Source: an uncultured Candidatus Marinamargulisbacteria bacterium
Lineage (GTDB): Bacteria > Margulisbacteria > Riflemargulisbacteria > GWF2-35-9
Length of the DNA stretch: 40,675 bases
Assembly (NCBI GenBank): GCA_903910705.1
Contig: CAIWAN010000066.1
Span: forward strand, 1-40,675
Direction: 5' to 3'
Shown here: positions 22,918 through 33,401 of the stretch, piece by piece
Layout: each line of letters begins with the position of its first letter
Position numbering within the stretch: the first letter of the stretch is position 1
The notes under the pieces: generated by a model
What the model saw: only the letters and a program-made list of their open reading frames with translations
Told to the model about the DNA's origin: nothing
Databases searched by the model: none
Translations under genes and position numbers: made by a program

Positions 22918-22918
<1 letters not shown>
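21836..22918 (+). CDS. flhB: Flagellar export switch protein FlhB
   Basis: 360 residues, usual length. N-terminal DKTEEPTPHKLREARKKGQV, four membrane helices (about 30-210), KMSKQEVKDEYKKLEGDP linker, and the autocleavage Asn-Pro-Thr-His at residues 266-269 within VVTNPTHIAVAIKY. FlhB sets export specificity from hook to filament by cleaving itself at NP/TH. All key residues are present. No flhA follows; the operon gives way to an SLBB gene and ligA. Confidence 0.97.
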
Positions 22919-26064
<3,146 letters not shown>

Positions 26065-26099
26065 CGCCTCAGTATAATAGGGCTATAAAATCTTTGGCT

Positions 26100-26105
26100 A
26101 GGAGG
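26100..26105 (+). promoter_or_regulatory. Consensus ribosome-binding site fixing the 26112 start
   Basis: AGGAGG, six bases before ATG 26112. It shows that the in-frame TTG at 26094, which lies upstream of this site, is not the start. Confidence 0.85.
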
Positions 26106-26111
26106 CCCTTC

Positions 26112-26810
26112 ATGAAAAAATTAATCGCATTGCTTTTGGTTCTGGGTTGTTTGGTATATGCAGAAGAAGGCAAAGTCTTTAATGGTGAGATCGATAACTT
26201 TGAGGATGGCAATATGATCGAGGCTCCGGCATGGTGGACATTCGGTGATTCAGACCAAACCGTAGTTGAGACTGACATTTGGGCCAAGGATCCGCTTATT
26301 AAATATCTCGGCAAATATGCGCTACAGGTTAAAGGCGAGACAAAATCTTGGTATGTGGGTGGAATGGGAACCTATCTGGGTGTGGATGCGAGCAGTTATA
26401 CCCACGTCAAATTACATGTTTACGGGGCTGGGCCGGATAGCGGCAAGGTAACCATACAGCTTTTTGAAGATGACAACGGAAATACGACGCTTGAACAAGA
26501 TGTAAATAATAACTATGAGCCTATTTTCGATGATAAGTTCGAATATGAATTAAAAGTCAATTGGAAAGGCTGGAAAGTGGTTCAAATCCCGTTTACTGCC
26601 TTTAAAGATGCCAATCGCAAAGACCCCAAGATAAAAGATTCGAAAAATATTGGGGATGGTTTGTTCAATCCTGATCGCTTAAACGGTTCAGGTGGTTTAC
26701 TTCACTTCCAGTTTGTTTTCTTGGCCAACACTAAGTCAGGTTCTATTGATATGGCTTTTGATAACATTCGCTTAATGAACTTGGGTGGCGTTAAAGGAGT
26801 CGCTAAATGA
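26112..26810 (+). CDS. Exported CBM11/CIA30-like jelly-roll protein
   Basis: 232 residues with a clear signal peptide (about 1-18, cleaved near YAEEG). The rest is one beta jelly-roll: IDNFEDGN opening, WWTFGDSD, a middle with KLHVYGAGPDSGKVTIQLFE (in part), GWKVVQIPFTAF, and a closing IDMAFDNIRLMN. This pattern is that of carbohydrate-binding CBM11/CIA30 and related domains. It is first in a tight operon of exported proteins, so it may be a major surface component or a sugar-recognising tip. It is strongly expressed by the look of promoter and RBS. The next gene overlaps by four bases. Confidence 0.75.
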   Translation: MKKLIALLLVLGCLVYAEEGKVFNGEIDNFEDGNMIEAPAWWTFGDSDQTVVETDIWAKDPLIKYLGKYALQVKGETKSWYVGGMGTYLGVDASSYTHVKLHVYGAGPDSGKVTIQLFEDDNGNTTLEQDVNNNYEPIFDDKFEYELKVNWKGWKVVQIPFTAFKDANRKDPKIKDSKNIGDGLFNPDRLNGSGGLLHFQFVFLANTKSGSIDMAFDNIRLMNLGGVKGVAK

Positions 26811-27319
26811 TAGGCCGACTCCTTTTGGGGGTTGTTTTGTTGGGGTTTTCACTGGCAGCTTCACAATCTTCGGTTGTTCAAGTCATGGTCAATGTAAAGA
26901 GTATTTTTGAACTGTCGGTTGATCGAAGCATCGTAGATTTTAAGGCGATGGCCGCAAAAGAGGAAAAGAACGATCAACCGGATGGCGAGGGCGTCAAAGT
27001 CACGGTCAAAACTAATAATGGACGCCCTTGGTTCCTGAAGATCAGTGATCTGTCGGAGCTGTCAAGCGGAACGGATGTGATCCCCAATAGTCAATTTACG
27101 TGGAGTGGGTATCGCTCAAAGACGGCAAAAGGAACATGGTTCGGAAATGGCCGGAATCCGTTTTCTCTAACGCCTGCATTGGCTTATTCGAGCGCTCCAA
27201 CGGAATACAATAATTATCCGTCCGGTACCGATGCGTTCTTTAAGTTTGGGGTTAAGATACCGGATAAACAAAACAGTGGCGTCTATCGAACCGTCATCGC
27301 TTTTACACTGACCGAGTAA
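26807..27319 (+). CDS. Exported pilin-like / WxL-like subunit 1
   Basis: 170 residues, signal peptide about 1-18 (cleaved near LAASQ), then a small beta-sandwich. Its last strand is NSGVYRTVIAFTLTE. The next protein ends QSGSYYSNITFTLTGN. The shared SG-x-Y-x3-I-x-F-T-L-T end, also common in spore-coat-U and WxL-type domains, suggests related subunits that could assemble by strand exchange. No cysteines in the mature part. Four-base overlap with the gene before; three bases before the gene after. Pilin identity is inference from context (chaperone and usher-like genes follow). Confidence 0.6.
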   Translation: MIGRLLLGVVLLGFSLAASQSSVVQVMVNVKSIFELSVDRSIVDFKAMAAKEEKNDQPDGEGVKVTVKTNNGRPWFLKISDLSELSSGTDVIPNSQFTWSGYRSKTAKGTWFGNGRNPFSLTPALAYSSAPTEYNNYPSGTDAFFKFGVKIPDKQNSGVYRTVIAFTLTE

Positions 27320-27322
27320 TTC

Positions 27323-27763
27323 ATGCGCCGCCTGATCTTATTGCTTGTTCTGGCTTTTGCGCCGGCCGTTTTTCCATTAAGCCTCGCTGTGACCCAAACG
27401 CCTGTCATAAACTTTGGCGATCTTGCCCCGAACGAAGGGGAGTGGCTAACCCTTGGATATTCCTATCCTCCTACAAAGGTTGATTGTACGGCGAATGCTG
27501 GGGCATGGCAGCTTTCCATTAAATCAACAGGGTTTTATGGGCCGGCCTATATGCCCGTTAGTTCCATGAAATTTGATCTCGTATGGCCTTTGATTCCAAT
27601 TACGGATGTTTGGACAAATTTTACAGGAAGCGATCAACTAATTGATTCGGGAACATTAGCCATGACAAAGTCCTATTCTTTTCTATGGGGAATACGTATC
27701 CCAACGAATCAACAGTCCGGATCTTATTATTCAAACATAACATTTACGTTGACCGGAAATTAA
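27323..27763 (+). CDS. Exported pilin-like / WxL-like subunit 2
   Basis: 146 residues, signal peptide about 1-20 (MRRLILLLVLAFAPAVFPLS), mature beta-sandwich with VTQTPVINFGDLAPNEGEW, LGYSYPPTKVDCTANAGAW (one cysteine) and the C-terminal QSGSYYSNITFTLTGN. Related in its last strand to the preceding protein. Aromatic pairs (FYGPAYM, YYSN) recur. A minor or major fibre subunit is possible; sequence alone does not decide. Confidence 0.6.
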   Translation: MRRLILLLVLAFAPAVFPLSLAVTQTPVINFGDLAPNEGEWLTLGYSYPPTKVDCTANAGAWQLSIKSTGFYGPAYMPVSSMKFDLVWPLIPITDVWTNFTGSDQLIDSGTLAMTKSYSFLWGIRIPTNQQSGSYYSNITFTLTGN

Positions 27764-27773
27764 GGAGAATATA

Positions 27774-28550
27774 ATGAAAAGGTTCTTGATCGCTCAAATA
27801 GTTGCTCTCATCCTATCCATAGCCTTTGGGTTTCAAGTTAACCTTGATCCGTCTCACATCGATGTCACCATGAAATCGGAGGGTTTAGAGCGTCGAACGT
27901 TAACCCTTTCAAATAGTGGCAAAGAACCCCTGCAAGTCAAAGTATATTTGAACGATTGGACATTCGAGAAAAACGCAAAGACCTTTCTTCCTGCTGGGGC
28001 TACGGCCTACACCCTCAAAAATAACGCGAAAATATACCCCACAAGTTTTAGCATTAACCCCCTCGAAAGTAAAAGTGTGATTCTTAGTCTAACTGCTAAG
28101 AAAGACGATCCTGCTGGTCAATATGGCGTTGTATTCTTTGAAGTGCAACCCGCTGCAAGATCAAAGAATTCAGGGCTAAGTATCGGAGGGCGTCTTGGAA
28201 CCCTGATTGCAAAAGAGGCAGAGGGTAAACAAAAGCGGCAACTTCAACTTTCCCGTTCAAGCGTTACGTTAAAAGGCAAGAAACTTTTGATCGATCTCGA
28301 GGGCAAAAACCCAACGGCGTTGTTGGTTCGACCCAAGGTGACCGTGGTTTTAACGAATGATAAAAACGACGTTCTTTATAAAAGCGATATCCAAAGCGAT
28401 TGGATCTTGTTGCCAAATTCAACGCAGTCCTACTCGGGGGTTCTTTTTGTTGACAAGGTTGATGCGAAAACGGGTTTGACGGCTTTGATCACGATCGACT
28501 TGGGTGATGACGAGCTTATGCTTAAAGAAAGCAAGGTCATCCTCGAATGA
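27774..28550 (+). CDS. PapD-like periplasmic chaperone candidate
   Basis: 258 residues, signal peptide about 1-20. N-terminal Ig-like domain (about 22-125) with VTMKSEGLERRTLTLSNSGK, an early strand that alternates as in PapD-type and DUF916-type domains, and INPLESKSVILSLTAKKDDP before the GQYGVVFFEV strand. The second domain (about 140-258) has LQLSRSSVTLKGKKLLIDLEG. It lacks the classical Arg8/Lys112-type signature I would need to call a true PapD; the two-domain plan fits. AAGGAG at 27763-27768 is a strong RBS before ATG 27774. Sits between the pilin-like genes and the usher-like gene. Confidence 0.6.
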   Translation: MKRFLIAQIVALILSIAFGFQVNLDPSHIDVTMKSEGLERRTLTLSNSGKEPLQVKVYLNDWTFEKNAKTFLPAGATAYTLKNNAKIYPTSFSINPLESKSVILSLTAKKDDPAGQYGVVFFEVQPAARSKNSGLSIGGRLGTLIAKEAEGKQKRQLQLSRSSVTLKGKKLLIDLEGKNPTALLVRPKVTVVLTNDKNDVLYKSDIQSDWILLPNSTQSYSGVLFVDKVDAKTGLTALITIDLGDDELMLKESKVILE

Positions 28551-30874
28551 TGAAGCGCCTCATCATCCTTGGATTTGTTCTGAGTGTATCGCTTGCGACG
28601 ACACTTCAAATGGATGTCAATGAACAGCGCGTATTTTCTCGATCCGGCACGACAGGGTTTGTCGCTATCAATAACCAAGAGGTGCTACTCCTCACGACTC
28701 AAAATAATGCGGTTGTCGTTAAAGCCTTGCGGCCTGGGCAAGCGACTTTCGTTGCTATCGTCGGTTCTGAGCGCGTTCCTTATCGAATAACAGTCGGGGT
28801 GATCAAGCTACCCGAACGACAAATAGTCGAAGATCCCGATTATTCAGGTAAAGTCTTTGCAACCAACCTCAGCATGGGGTTTGGAAGTGGAAAATCACAG
28901 TCCACTTATGCTCAAAATATTTGGGACTATGCTTACACCACCTATCGACTTCGAACGACAGGTGAAACGCCGATCGGGTCTTTAGTCAATCAAATTGACA
29001 TCAAGAACGGACGGGATGCTCAGGGCGTTAATGCCTTCTTTACCTCGATCAAGTCACCATTGGGACTCTTCGCGGTTGGGGATCAATTTATTCAAGATCA
29101 AGCGTCGATTCTCTTCCCCTCCCAACCTGTTCAAGGTTTTAGTTATGAACGATCAGTTGGCAATGTGAACTACTATGTTTTCGCCGGTAAGAATAATTAT
29201 GGTTCTTGGGGCTCTGCTTTAGAGCGAGAGGAACGAGCAGCTCAAGATATTAGCATCGTCAAAGGGATCATGACGGTTAGTCCGTCTTCATCCGTTGGGC
29301 TTTCTCTTGGTAATGGGGGGATGAGCCTTTTGGGTAACACACAATGGATGGGGGTTCATCTTGATGGCGAGTTTGCTCAAGATAATAAAGGGAAGTTTGC
29401 TCAAGAAGCCACGGGCGTCTTTCGATCCGTTTCTGAGGACCTTTCTTGGACAGGAGGTTACCGTTATTACCAAGCCGATTTTAATGTTCCTGTCGGACTC
29501 GTAAATTATGGTGGCTATCAAGGGATGTGGGGGAATCTTAATTATCAGCCGTCTGATATTATTTCTTTGACTTACGCGGGGCAACGATATAAACGCGCTC
29601 TATCGAGTCAAATGAAGGACGAAAATGGGAATCAATTCCAAATTAGTCTTTTGGGTGAACGTTACAAAGACTTTTTGCCCGATCTGACGGTTCAGATATG
29701 GGACAATCAAGGTGCAGGTGCGGTAAATACCTATGATGTTTATCCGATCTCTACGAATTCGATCGTTATGACGACCTCGATGACGAATGAAATGTCGTAT
29801 CTTCAAAACGGAGCCTCCTATAGACTCTCTAAACGGTTGCCCTGGTATGGGGTCGACGTCTGGGCTAAATGGATACCTCAACAAGTCATTAATCAACAAA
29901 GCCCTACATATAGTTATGACAAACAATCGGTTGGTTATGGGGCGCGACTACCTTTATTTAATGAAGGGTTAGTCTATCAAGGGGAATGGTTGCGAGACGA
30001 GACTCGATATCATGATCAAGCGACCACCCCCGAGAAAATTCATCGTTCGTTCTTCAGTACTTGCCCACTTATTCTTTGGAGTCCGAATATGGTGCTGAAT
30101 ACGTTTTATCAATATGAGAATCGTCAAAACGAATCAACCCTCGAGACCTTTATTAAACACTTTTATAAGATCGAACTTCAATGGAGAGTGAATCCTTTGG
30201 GGCTCCTGACGTTAGCCACCTACCGAACGATAGACGAAGCGCCGGCCGTTTATCAACAAAATAGAGTATTGGACGAATGGCGAATAGAGTATTCTCAGGA
30301 CTTTAACTGGCATGCAAACTTTGGCAAAAACAAGTCTGTTCTAACGGGTATTGTTTATATCGACGAAAACAACAATGGAATCTATGAGAAAAAAGAAAAA
30401 GGCGTTGCCAATGTCCGCGTTGCCTTATCGGGTTCTCGTGTGACAACAACGAACAAAGAAGGTTTTTATCACTTTGATAATGTCAATGAAGGCGAGGCTT
30501 CCTTGGATCTTGAATGGGCCGGAGCTCAGGCAGACTTGATCATCGATGAAATGCCAGCTCCCATTAAAGTGAAAACGAATGAACGCTATGTTGTGAATGT
30601 TGCGGTTCGTTTGAATGACCGGTTCAAAGGATTTGTGCTTGATGATAAAGAAAACGGCGTTCAAGATGTCCGAGTGATGATCAATGACCATGTTGTCAAA
30701 ACCGATGAAACGGGGTATTACGAATATTCTTCTTCGGAATACGGTGGCAACTATACAGTGGCCCTTGATATGAGTTCATTGCCCAGTCAATTTAAACTGA
30801 TCGGTGATCGGAAAAAATACGTCACGGGTGGTGCGGAGTTGAATTTTTCCATGGGTCCAAGGAGCACGAAGTGA
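28547..30874 (+). CDS. Usher-like outer-membrane protein with pilus-N and SdrD-B-like domains
   Basis: 775 residues. Signal peptide about 1-20. Next a ~65-residue Ig-like domain (about 22-85) resembling the pilus-type N-domain of secretins (FVAINNQEVLLLTTQNNAVV, in part; GQATFVAIVG). Residues ~95-590 are an extended beta-rich, aromatic-rich region like an outer-membrane barrel (VGDQFIQDQASILFP, GGYRYYQADFNV). From 598 comes an SdrD-B/prealbumin-like domain, LTGIVYIDENNNGIYEKKE, then GVANVRVALSG and TNKEGFYHFDNV; from 694 a second, GFVLDDKENGVQDVRVMIN and TDETGYYEYSS. Classical ushers end in two small domains too, but not of this kind. Starts ATG 28547 (ATG 28550 possible). Confidence 0.65.
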   Translation: MMKRLIILGFVLSVSLATTLQMDVNEQRVFSRSGTTGFVAINNQEVLLLTTQNNAVVVKALRPGQATFVAIVGSERVPYRITVGVIKLPERQIVEDPDYSGKVFATNLSMGFGSGKSQSTYAQNIWDYAYTTYRLRTTGETPIGSLVNQIDIKNGRDAQGVNAFFTSIKSPLGLFAVGDQFIQDQASILFPSQPVQGFSYERSVGNVNYYVFAGKNNYGSWGSALEREERAAQDISIVKGIMTVSPSSSVGLSLGNGGMSLLGNTQWMGVHLDGEFAQDNKGKFAQEATGVFRSVSEDLSWTGGYRYYQADFNVPVGLVNYGGYQGMWGNLNYQPSDIISLTYAGQRYKRALSSQMKDENGNQFQISLLGERYKDFLPDLTVQIWDNQGAGAVNTYDVYPISTNSIVMTTSMTNEMSYLQNGASYRLSKRLPWYGVDVWAKWIPQQVINQQSPTYSYDKQSVGYGARLPLFNEGLVYQGEWLRDETRYHDQATTPEKIHRSFFSTCPLILWSPNMVLNTFYQYENRQNESTLETFIKHFYKIELQWRVNPLGLLTLATYRTIDEAPAVYQQNRVLDEWRIEYSQDFNWHANFGKNKSVLTGIVYIDENNNGIYEKKEKGVANVRVALSGSRVTTTNKEGFYHFDNVNEGEASLDLEWAGAQADLIIDEMPAPIKVKTNERYVVNVAVRLNDRFKGFVLDDKENGVQDVRVMINDHVVKTDETGYYEYSSSEYGGNYTVALDMSSLPSQFKLIGDRKKYVTGGAELNFSMGPRSTK

Positions 30875-31503
30875 AAATATTAATTATCGTTTTGCTTTCA
30901 GTAAGCACGCTCTTTGCGGCGATGAGTGATGAAAGTTGGGCCAACCTAAAGAAACAATATCTACTTTCAAAAACAATATCTCATGATGCCAACATTCGAT
31001 TTGGTATGGCAATGGCTTATGCCTATACAGGCTTTATCCAAGAGGGTTTTTCTGAGATCGCGTTGATCCCCTCTGTTGATCCAACGTTTAAATCAGTCGT
31101 TGTCGATAAATACATCAGGAAAACAAATCTGAATCCAAGTAATTGGCAGCATCATTGGTTCTTAGCTTTTGCCTACTACGTCAATGATCGAAAAGATGAA
31201 TCCATTATCGAGTTCCAAAAGGTCATCAATTTAGTGACCGACCCCTCGATCAAAGGGTGGGCGTGGGGTTATATCGCCTATATTTATGGAGAGAGAAAAG
31301 ACTGGCCTAAAGCAATGACCGCGATAAATAATGCGATCAAACTTGAACCCGAAGGGAGTGCCTTATATTTTGCGAAAGGGCTAGCCCTTAAAGAAACGGG
31401 TGATACCGTTGGCGCAGCGGGCGCTATCGTCATGGCGGGGTCGTTGCAAGCCAAACAGATGTTCGGAAAGCGATCCATCTCGAAATTAAAGAATGATCAG
31501 TAA
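30871..31503 (+). CDS. Exported TPR protein
   Basis: 210 residues with a short signal peptide (about 1-16, KILIIVLLSVSTLFAAM). About three to four tetratricopeptide repeats follow: MAMAYAYTGFIQEGFSEIAL, FLAFAYYVNDRKDESIIEFQ, WGYIAYIYGERKDWPKAMTA and LYFAKGLALKETGDTVGAAG. A periplasmic scaffold for the preceding usher-like system is likely. GTG 30871 overlaps the stop of that gene; it overlaps lptC by 11 bases. Confidence 0.75.
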   Translation: MKILIIVLLSVSTLFAAMSDESWANLKKQYLLSKTISHDANIRFGMAMAYAYTGFIQEGFSEIALIPSVDPTFKSVVVDKYIRKTNLNPSNWQHHWFLAFAYYVNDRKDESIIEFQKVINLVTDPSIKGWAWGYIAYIYGERKDWPKAMTAINNAIKLEPEGSALYFAKGLALKETGDTVGAAGAIVMAGSLQAKQMFGKRSISKLKNDQ

Positions 31504-31912
31504 GCTTATTGTTTTTATTGGATTTATTGCCTTATTGTTTTTTGTTTTTAGCCAGATCAATTTCTCGCCGGTAACTTTAGTCAAAAAGAAGGTTCCAGAC
31601 TTTGTTCTTGAAAATAGCTATACTCGACATTATGTTCGAGGTGAACCCAAATTCACGATCCAGGCAAAACGTATTGAAATTTTTGATCATCGGTTGGAGA
31701 TCCAAGATGCGGTTGTTCGTTTTCAACCCTCCATTGAGGTGTTTTCGGATCAAATGTCGCTCGATTTGTCCAAGGGGATGTTGTGGGCCAATCAAAATGT
31801 GATGGTTCGGGCCAATCAATTTCAATATTTTGGAACTAAGGTGATCTATGATATTAAACAAAAACGGTTTACTGGCTATAATAGAGGAAAATTGTTGTTA
31901 GGATCAAAATAA
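31493..31912 (+). CDS. lptC: LptC-like LPS transport protein
   Basis: 139 residues: one N-terminal membrane helix (about 4-22) and a periplasmic LptC/OstA-type beta-jellyroll (FVLENSYTRHYVRGEPKFTI, then IEIFDHRLEIQDAVVRF, ANQNVMVRANQF). Passes LPS from LptB2FG to LptA. Slightly shorter than the ~190 residues of E. coli LptC. Directly followed by lptA (one-base overlap). No LptB or LptD is in the window. Confidence 0.8.
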   Translation: MISKLIVFIGFIALLFFVFSQINFSPVTLVKKKVPDFVLENSYTRHYVRGEPKFTIQAKRIEIFDHRLEIQDAVVRFQPSIEVFSDQMSLDLSKGMLWANQNVMVRANQFQYFGTKVIYDIKQKRFTGYNRGKLLLGSK

Positions 31913-32427
31913 TGAAAAAATTACTATTTATGCTCATCGTTGTTTGTTTGTCTTTTTCGAAACAGGCCGAGCCTGTCCAAATTCAAGCGGATCGGTTTGA
32001 GGTCGATATTTCGAGCAATCAATTTGTTGCTGAAGATAATGTGGTTATTCAGCAAGGTGAGATCATGATCACCGCTAAACGGGCGACGTATACAAGCAAG
32101 CGTGATTTTATCAATATCGATAAGGATGTCAGTCTAAAGTATCAAGATCTGAACCTTAAATCCGATGTTCTGGTTTTTGATCGGGTCAAGCAACAAATGC
32201 TGGCAGAGGGTCATTTGAAAGTGGACAATCGGGACATTAATATTGTCTCAGAGCGGCTTCGCTATGATATCGACCCCAATATCATTTTGTTCTTGGGTGA
32301 AACAACGGTGATCCAAAAAAAGAATGTGATCAGAGGACGCAATATCCTTTATGATGTAAAAAAACGAAAACTGTCCTCCACCGAAAAAACGCAAATGCGA
32401 TTAGAGTCGACGCCTACAAATCGATGA
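31912..32427 (+). CDS. lptA: LptA-like LPS transport bridge protein
   Basis: 171 residues, signal peptide about 1-19, then an OstA/LptA beta-jellyroll: QIQADRFEVDISSNQFVAED, NVVIQQGEIMITAKRATY, VLVFDRVKQQMLAEGHLKV. Forms the periplasmic LPS bridge between LptC and the outer-membrane translocon. Its start overlaps lptC's stop by one base and its stop overlaps the TrxB-like start (ATGA). Confidence 0.85.
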   Translation: MKKLLFMLIVVCLSFSKQAEPVQIQADRFEVDISSNQFVAEDNVVIQQGEIMITAKRATYTSKRDFINIDKDVSLKYQDLNLKSDVLVFDRVKQQMLAEGHLKVDNRDINIVSERLRYDIDPNIILFLGETTVIQKKNVIRGRNILYDVKKRKLSSTEKTQMRLESTPTNR

Positions 32428-33401
32428 GTCAGGTTGATACGCGTCTTGAGAAAAACATTATTACCCTTGAAGGTGGGGCGGTGTATGACGTCCTTATTAT
32501 CGGTGCGGGGCCAGCGGGTATCACGGCGGCCACACTGGCTTTTCAGCGGGGTCTCTCTGTTCTTTTGATCGAAGAAGCGGTTCTTTGTGGGAATGTATAT
32601 AATATCCCAGAGGTTGAAGATGCCGTATTCTTTCGAGAAGTGAGACCTTTAGGTAAAGATATCGCGCCCTACTTCTCTCAGAATATTACTCGCTTCCCCC
32701 TCGATGTTGTTTATGAGCGGGTTAGCGCTGTAAAGCTTGAAGGTCCCATTAAAACCGTCATCACAGCCCATCATACCTACTGGGGGCGATCTGTGATCCT
32801 TGCCACGGGGACAAAAATAAAGCAAGCAACGGTTGCGAATAGCGAGCAATTTTATGGCCATGGGGTCTCTTATTGTGCGGTTTGTGACGTGGGGTATTAT
32901 TTTCAGAAGCCTGTTATGATCGTGGGAACGGGGGAGAATATGGCTAAAATGGCATTATTCTTGTCCGAGGGGGGTAGTCAGGTTGCTTTTGTCAGCCCCA
33001 CCGATCGCATCGATGCGTCCGCAACCATCCGAACCAGATTGGCGGGGCATTCAAAAATATCCGGCTATTATGGTTATAAAATTATCGAGCTGAAAGGTGA
33101 TCATAAGTTAGAGTCGGTTGTTTTAGAATCCTCGGATAAACAAAAAACCATTACAGTAAAAGCTGAGGCTTTATTCATCTATGAAGGCATTCAAGCGAAC
33201 ACCGATTTTCTCGCAAATGATCAACTCGAATTAACCCATGAGGGGTTCGTTCGAGCGAATGCCTTAATGGAAACAACGGTCTCGGGCGTGTTCGCTATTG
33301 GTTCGGTGCGAGATAACCCACGACGACGGATCGTATACGGGATGTCCGATGCGATGACCGCCATTGATCAAATCGAAACCTATTTATATTTTCTAGCATG
33401 A
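32424..33401 (+). CDS. Thioredoxin-reductase-like flavoprotein
   Basis: 325 residues, FAD/NAD(P)H pyridine-nucleotide disulfide oxidoreductase of the low-Mr TrxB group. FAD-binding DVLIIGAGPAGITAATLA; redox pair CAVC at C151/C154 (usually CATC); a second Rossmann site VMIVGTGENMAKMALFLSEG, which departs from the usual G-G-G-x-S-A core. The C-terminal FAD contact reads GVFAIGSVRDNPRRRIVY where most members have G-D-V/C. The N-terminal ~25 residues are an extra lead. Probably reduces a thioredoxin-like partner, but the altered NAD(P) and FAD motifs make substrate and electron donor uncertain. Sits oddly between lptA and csaB. Confidence 0.75.
   Translation: MSQVDTRLEKNIITLEGGAVYDVLIIGAGPAGITAATLAFQRGLSVLLIEEAVLCGNVYNIPEVEDAVFFREVRPLGKDIAPYFSQNITRFPLDVVYERVSAVKLEGPIKTVITAHHTYWGRSVILATGTKIKQATVANSEQFYGHGVSYCAVCDVGYYFQKPVMIVGTGENMAKMALFLSEGGSQVAFVSPTDRIDASATIRTRLAGHSKISGYYGYKIIELKGDHKLESVVLESSDKQKTITVKAEALFIYEGIQANTDFLANDQLELTHEGFVRANALMETTVSGVFAIGSVRDNPRRRIVYGMSDAMTAIDQIETYLYFLA

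Follow-up and report, generated by a model that had tools for sequence, protein, structure and literature searches.

What is made by six consecutive genes for exported proteins in the 2.2-Mb genome of an uncultured marine bacterium of the Margulisbacteria? The window, by which we mean the whole stretch of 40,675 nucleotides that was analysed, had been read in a first-pass annotation as holding a possible chaperone-usher (CU)-like surface system of six exported proteins, and all six open reading frames were found at 26112–31503. They lie on the plus strand, overlap or stand no more than about 10 bases apart, and have N-termini that were signal-peptide-like when judged by eye. The locus is flanked by a CoA-dehydratase-activase-like gene on one side and by lptC and lptA on the other, with glycosyltransferase-type genes also nearby; at 22918–23298, between flhB and ligA, the window encodes a short exported protein with an SLBB domain (5.5e-11). 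The clean promoter noted ahead of the first gene was present as a consensus match: a sigma-70-like TTGCCA-17-TATAAT (26050–26078, plus strand) agreed at 11 of 12 consensus positions, was the top-scoring site in 25900–32500 and stood 34 bp 5′ of the first ATG, and AGGAGG (26100–26105) lay upstream of the first gene (26112). This previously unrecognised operon looks like a surface-fibre assembly machine, and its first five genes probably form a distinct lineage of donor-strand, CU-like surface-fibre systems.

A scan of genome contigs with SubA, the first of two small subunits, gave matches in Margulisbacteria only, and the close relatives were Candidatus Marinamargulisbacteria, Margulisbacteria GWF2_35_9 and Termititenax sp. 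The genes did stay together in related genomes, a check that had been suggested beforehand: the order CBM-subunit(s)-chaperone-usher was kept across several Margulisbacteria families in differing neighbourhoods, namely in f1/f2, in genome G007 and in f4, and with contig breaks in G057, G032 and G038 (in G038 and G032 contig ends split the module). Six genomes from two families carried cbm-subA-subB-chaperone-usher-(ugd)-tpr-lptC-lptA, where the bracketed gene, about 440 aa and UDP-glucose 6-dehydrogenase-like by sequence, stood between usher and TPR in four of the six (L012 9223-10545, L013 5223-6536, L014 9688-11013, L015 6181-7518) and was missing from that position in G000, the window's genome, and in G001. 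In G007 the core of five genes adjoined genes with carbohydrate-binding domains, in f4 a gene for a peptidoglycan amidase (AMIN/Amidase_3) came after the usher gene (L040 6410-7798, L039 6288-8546, L042 4702-7188), and in G057 and G032 the core lay downstream of sugar-permease-like and GH26-CBM9 genes. The arrangement is beyond chance, since the first five genes follow one another in the same sequence in genomes that are only distantly related. Among 74 genomes, the chaperone and usher profiles both matched in 18, each matched alone in one, and neither matched in 54 (Fisher 5e-15, kinship of the genomes ignored); the match in the usher-only genome (G022) covered just a C-terminal domain, and in the chaperone-only genome (G057) the usher was cut by a contig end. 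The sixth gene of the window (30871–31503) encodes an exported protein of 210 aa with a TPR domain, as annotated, but it does not belong to the conserved unit: it was seen in the two closest families only and is a lineage-specific neighbour outside the core.

The fourth gene (27774–28550) encodes a predicted periplasmic chaperone of 258 aa. Lack of a PapD-like fold had been named in advance as one of two findings that would overturn the CU-like reading, but the AF2 model (pLDDT 75) gave two β-sandwich (Ig) domains arranged as in such chaperones, with the best PDB matches to WxLIP (1.7e-10), Caf1M (3.7e-10), FimC and CsuC (3.3e-9). The most-matched Pfam family was WxLIP_PGBD (DUF916), found in 8 of 19 chaperones with a best value of 2.5e-5, and DUF3324 matched one of the 19 weakly. 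The predicted G1 strand read h-x-h-x-x-[RK] in all 15 usher-linked chaperones examined; in the window copy the basic residue is Arg140 (codon at 28191–28193), which comes after the h-x-h donor motif in LSIGGRLG, within the predicted G strand of domain 1, and by analogy is a candidate anchor of the subunit C-terminus. Archaic chaperones anchor the carboxylate with Arg89, which lies in the F strand of domain 1 (PMC4654587); the corresponding position in our chaperones was G, S, A or Q and never Arg, and their conserved basic residue sits in strand G, not in strand F. A second chaperone-like paralogue in G002-G004 (L074 5725-7309, L075 6492-7241, L076 4230-7467) had no G1 basic residue and was excluded from the core; the G002 copy (L076) adjoins small exported and CBM11-like proteins, and these paralogues may represent a second system.

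The second and third genes encode SubA (170 aa, 26807–27319) and SubB (146 aa, 27323–27763), which were homologous to each other (profile P 2.5e-18). Both end in the shared strand SG-x-Y-x3-I-x-F-T-L-T that had been noticed at first reading (SGVYRTVIAFTLTE and SGSYYSNITFTLTGN), and the SubA chain closes with FTLTE. SubA is WxL/SCPU-like by its W-F-L motif, its G-x-Y at 11 residues from the C-terminal end and its profile matches. Most subunits of the family had one W-x-L in the middle and ended in F-T-L/M-T-E/Q, so that the second W-x-L of the WxL domain was mostly replaced by F-T-L/M, and their G-x-Y Tyr stood 11 residues from the C-terminal end, as in 8 of 10 SCPU pilins. Roles had at first been assigned from gene order and size; this G-x-Y spacing and the G1 Arg/Lys of the chaperone are diagnostic features that now support them. 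SubA also carries an N-terminal extension of about 14 residues, which appears as an alignment gap at the same place in SubB, whose gene adjoins that of the chaperone. Across the family, 24–33 residues preceded the first core strand in subunits not next to the chaperone and 9–16 in the chaperone-adjacent one, a statistic that is illustrative because the signal cleavage sites were placed by a visual reading that was not blinded. In a Burkholderia archaic locus, the second SCPU protein likewise begins right at the core, without an extension. These features suggest that SubA is the polymerising subunit and that SubB may be the first, or tip, subunit.

The first gene (26112–26810) encodes an exported β-jelly-roll protein of 232 aa. 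Its CBM11-like assignment was right, though partly sub-threshold (SGBP_B_XBD 9.4e-6, CBM_11 0.16), and its relative from G057 matched SGBP_B_XBD at 1.5e-7, above the cut-off. A CBM-like gene leads every intact module. We also considered whether this protein could be a hidden pilin and rejected this, as its profile matched neither WxL nor SCPU. It has no subunit-like C-terminal strand and is probably a glycan-binding or anchoring partner of the fibre.

Ushers are 24-stranded outer-membrane barrels (PMC8410936). The fifth protein (775 aa, 28547–30874), for which a non-barrel prediction was the other refuting finding named in advance, was modelled with an N-domain, 24 strands at about aa 102–590 (28850–30316) and two C-terminal β domains; the model is of low confidence (pLDDT 59.7, built from 5 sequences), and its low-confidence stretch at aa 309–359 may hide one or two more strands. 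The top 11 PDB matches of the model were all FimD/PapC, over about 800 columns (E 4e-16 to 4e-11); the next was a porin (1.8e-8), and AlgE was also among the matches (4e-7). As a barrel alone, FimD (1.3e-7) did not beat porins (1.8e-8) by E-value; usher entries with only the barrel score like porins, so part of the strength of the usher match comes from the whole domain arrangement. No domain was inserted between modelled strands 6 and 7, the plug site of ushers, and the longest inter-strand stretch in the barrel, 51 residues of low confidence, lay away from these strands. PF00577 matched neither the window protein, nor its genome, nor any of 14 usher-like family members, with an E. coli control positive, and the barrel profile did not match archaic ushers (P 0.14).

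The ends of this protein also agreed with what had been read from the sequence. The secretin-type pilus N-domain (T2SS-T3SS_pil_N, aa 17–85, 28595–28801) was sub-threshold in the window protein (0.0032) and matched in 6 of the 14 family members (best 1.3e-9); a PapC_N-type N-domain was absent, and the N-domain profile compared with ushers gave P 0.31. The two SdrD-B-like domains at the other end (aa 597–775, 30335–30871) matched SdrD_B at 1.1e-13 and CarboxypepD_reg at 1.1e-8. The second of them also matched archaic ushers by hhalign (P 1.3e-4; reversed control 0.71), which by itself is weak evidence because SdrD_B/CarboxypepD domains are common. Members in f4 were shorter (580–588 aa), had no C-terminal domains and ended in GGLVY(K/R)F; a C-terminal aromatic is typical of outer-membrane barrels. 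Separately, the window protein has lost a third C-terminal domain of about 80 aa that is present in five relatives, including the same-genus G001; in the DNA alignment the loss is a clean gap of about 257 bases just before the TPR start (window 30870-30875, L011 2449-2700).

For profile comparison, plasmids supplied both archaic loci (SCPU-chaperone-usher) and WxL clusters, with consensus-like probes serving as bait only; the hhalign P-values are pairwise and based on small alignments. The chaperone profile matched archaic CU chaperones over the full length (5.6e-12), WxLIP over both domains (2.3e-10) and classical chaperones (1.2e-6), and the subunit profile matched WxL (3.3e-8) and, weakly, SCPU (6.3e-5), while reversed and column-shuffled controls stayed at background. 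The two reference groups barely matched each other directly (archaic chaperones vs WxLIP 2.3e-3, SCPU vs WxL 0.042). With the seven nearest sequences only, the chaperone gave 2.7e-8 against archaic chaperones and 2.4e-9 against WxLIP, and the subunits gave 5.7e-6 against WxL and 9e-4 against SCPU, which makes the SCPU link the weakest. At the level of single families, SubA, SubB and the 258-aa chaperone had no convincing Pfam or NCBIfam match; Pfam SCPU (PF05229) matched none of 25 subunits, leaving the profile-profile link alone, and Pfam WxL matched none of the subunits despite the profile result above. A PDB sequence search with the usher, chaperone and subunit profiles returned just an SdrD domain and a weak secretin N-domain match. 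Subunits and chaperone are no more distant from WxL/WxLIP than from their archaic CU counterparts, and by sequence the system stands between the CU and WxL families.

Together, the barrel and PapD-like models, the conserved gene order and the diagnostic residues support the chaperone-usher-like reading, which rests on observed gene order, homologies and co-occurrence and on predicted folds. The assembly route that we infer would begin with the export of SubA and SubB, each an incomplete WxL/SCPU-like domain of Ig type. The chaperone would complete each subunit with its domain-1 G strand, holding the subunit C-terminus near Arg140, and pass it to the usher-like protein with its secretin (T2SS-T3SS pilus)-type N-domain. 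SubB, having no donor extension, would therefore go first, as the tip, and SubA would then be added one after another by donor-strand exchange, the N-terminal extension of each fitting into the groove in the subunit ahead of it. The fibre would exit through the plugless barrel of about 24 strands, with the CBM-like protein probably binding glycan or serving as an anchor.

A rival explanation, which we consider unlikely, is a very divergent archaic (sigma) CU pilus operon whose differences are lineage drift. Archaic systems such as Csu (CsuC, CsuD) likewise have a two-Ig-domain chaperone matched over its full length, subunit genes beside chaperone and usher, the same C-terminal subunit pattern (G-x-Y at 11 residues from the chain end), a pair of subunits of which only one is extended at its N-terminus, and a barrel of usher size with C-terminal β domains; archaic ushers are mostly 765–800 aa, near the 775 aa found here, and Cyanobacteria and Deinococcus-Thermus are reported to have archaic systems (PMC4654587). 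However, the Margulisbacteria system has no PF00577, no plug and a secretin-type domain instead of PapC_N, the Arg89 anchor is missing, the subunits have a terminal Glu/Gln in place of the aromatic residue, lack the Cys and are closer to WxL than to SCPU, and a CBM protein heads the operon. The classical ushers FimD/PapC are the best structural matches and resemble the model in its 24 strands and C-terminal β domains, but differ in the plug and the N-domain, with no detectable sequence similarity (profile P 0.037, 54 columns).

The closeness to WxL raises the alternative of a diderm WxL-type complex that forms no polymer, in which WxL-like domains would leave via the barrel, bind glycan or peptidoglycan and stay permanently paired with the WxLIP-like protein. 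WxLIP consists of DUF916, DUF3324 and a C-terminal transmembrane helix (PMC10599100). The window chaperone has no such helix, a large usher-like barrel is always present in the Margulisbacteria modules, and one subunit class has an N-terminal extension while the last has none, as a polymer predicts, so that this alternative seems improbable to us even though the WxLIP_PGBD matches, WxLIP as top PDB match, the subunit match to WxL with one W-x-L retained, the amidase beside the f4 module and the CBM protein in every module all speak for it. The WxL/WxLIP (DUF916-DUF3324) clusters of Lactobacillales likewise place the subunit gene 5′ of the WxLIP gene, but the Margulisbacteria host is diderm, its subunits lack the second W-x-L, and no LPXTG partner was seen. 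Less likely still is a reading in which the barrel serves as an exporter related to exopolysaccharide or lipopolysaccharide, similar to AlgE/AlgK or BcsC, and is helped by TPR and carbohydrate-binding proteins. The nearby TPR, lptC, lptA and glycosyltransferase-type genes, the dehydrogenase-like gene of four relatives and the AlgE match would fit it, but modules of other families contain none of the TPR, lpt and dehydrogenase-like genes, ushers outscore AlgE by many orders of magnitude, and chaperone and subunits are left unexplained. The system lacks several of the tested features of the known usher superfamily and falls outside the WxL clusters too; a donor-strand system that likely works like chaperone-usher is the reading we retain.

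Relatives probably exist beyond Margulisbacteria. A search with the G057 chaperone found homologues on five Deinococcus plasmids (L083, L100, L101, L102, L103), which matched the Margulisbacteria chaperone profile at 3e-40 to 1.6e-19. Each adjoins, or is one gene away from, a protein of 839–1090 aa with SdrD/carboxypeptidase domains, as in Deinococcus NW-56, where the large protein stands beside the homologous chaperone, and the C-terminal ends of these large proteins matched the usher ends (profile P 2.9e-15). The genes are annotated as hypothetical, FimB/Mfa2 or carboxypeptidase regulatory-like. In contrast to the Margulisbacteria modules, no CBM gene was seen, and matches of the small proteins to the subunit profile were weak or absent (best 0.01). 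These clusters are probably unrecognised relatives of the system. In other searches, tblastn of the G007 usher in plasmids gave matches confined to SdrD_B domains, the Roseomonas and Eleftheria plasmid matches had no chaperone-usher context, and the D. radiodurans MP1 DUF11 proteins were ruled out as relatives, having shared domains only and no chaperone.

Standard profiles overlook the system entirely, so the parts of similar fibre-assembly machines probably carry the label hypothetical in Margulisbacteria and Deinococcus, and perhaps in further phyla too. A plugless usher, which in f4 is also without C-terminal domains, would raise the question of what gates and drives fibre secretion. CU pili and WxL complexes are families with no obvious earlier link, and a literature search found no paper treating WxL proteins as chaperone-usher relatives. 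We tentatively suggest, as an idea that may well prove wrong, that the module is a third, old donor-strand lineage by which diderm CU pili and monoderm WxL/WxLIP complexes would prove homologous, WxL domains being relatives of pilins and WxLIP a relative of PapD, with an usher that is plugless and has a secretin N-domain. If the WxL link is true, two large surface-protein families that have been studied separately become joined.

An expanded version of the module was observed in G027 (L079 2710-15721), with two multi-Ig chaperones of about 500 aa, an usher-like protein of 1332 aa and several genes of subunit-like type, among them a truncated chaperone.
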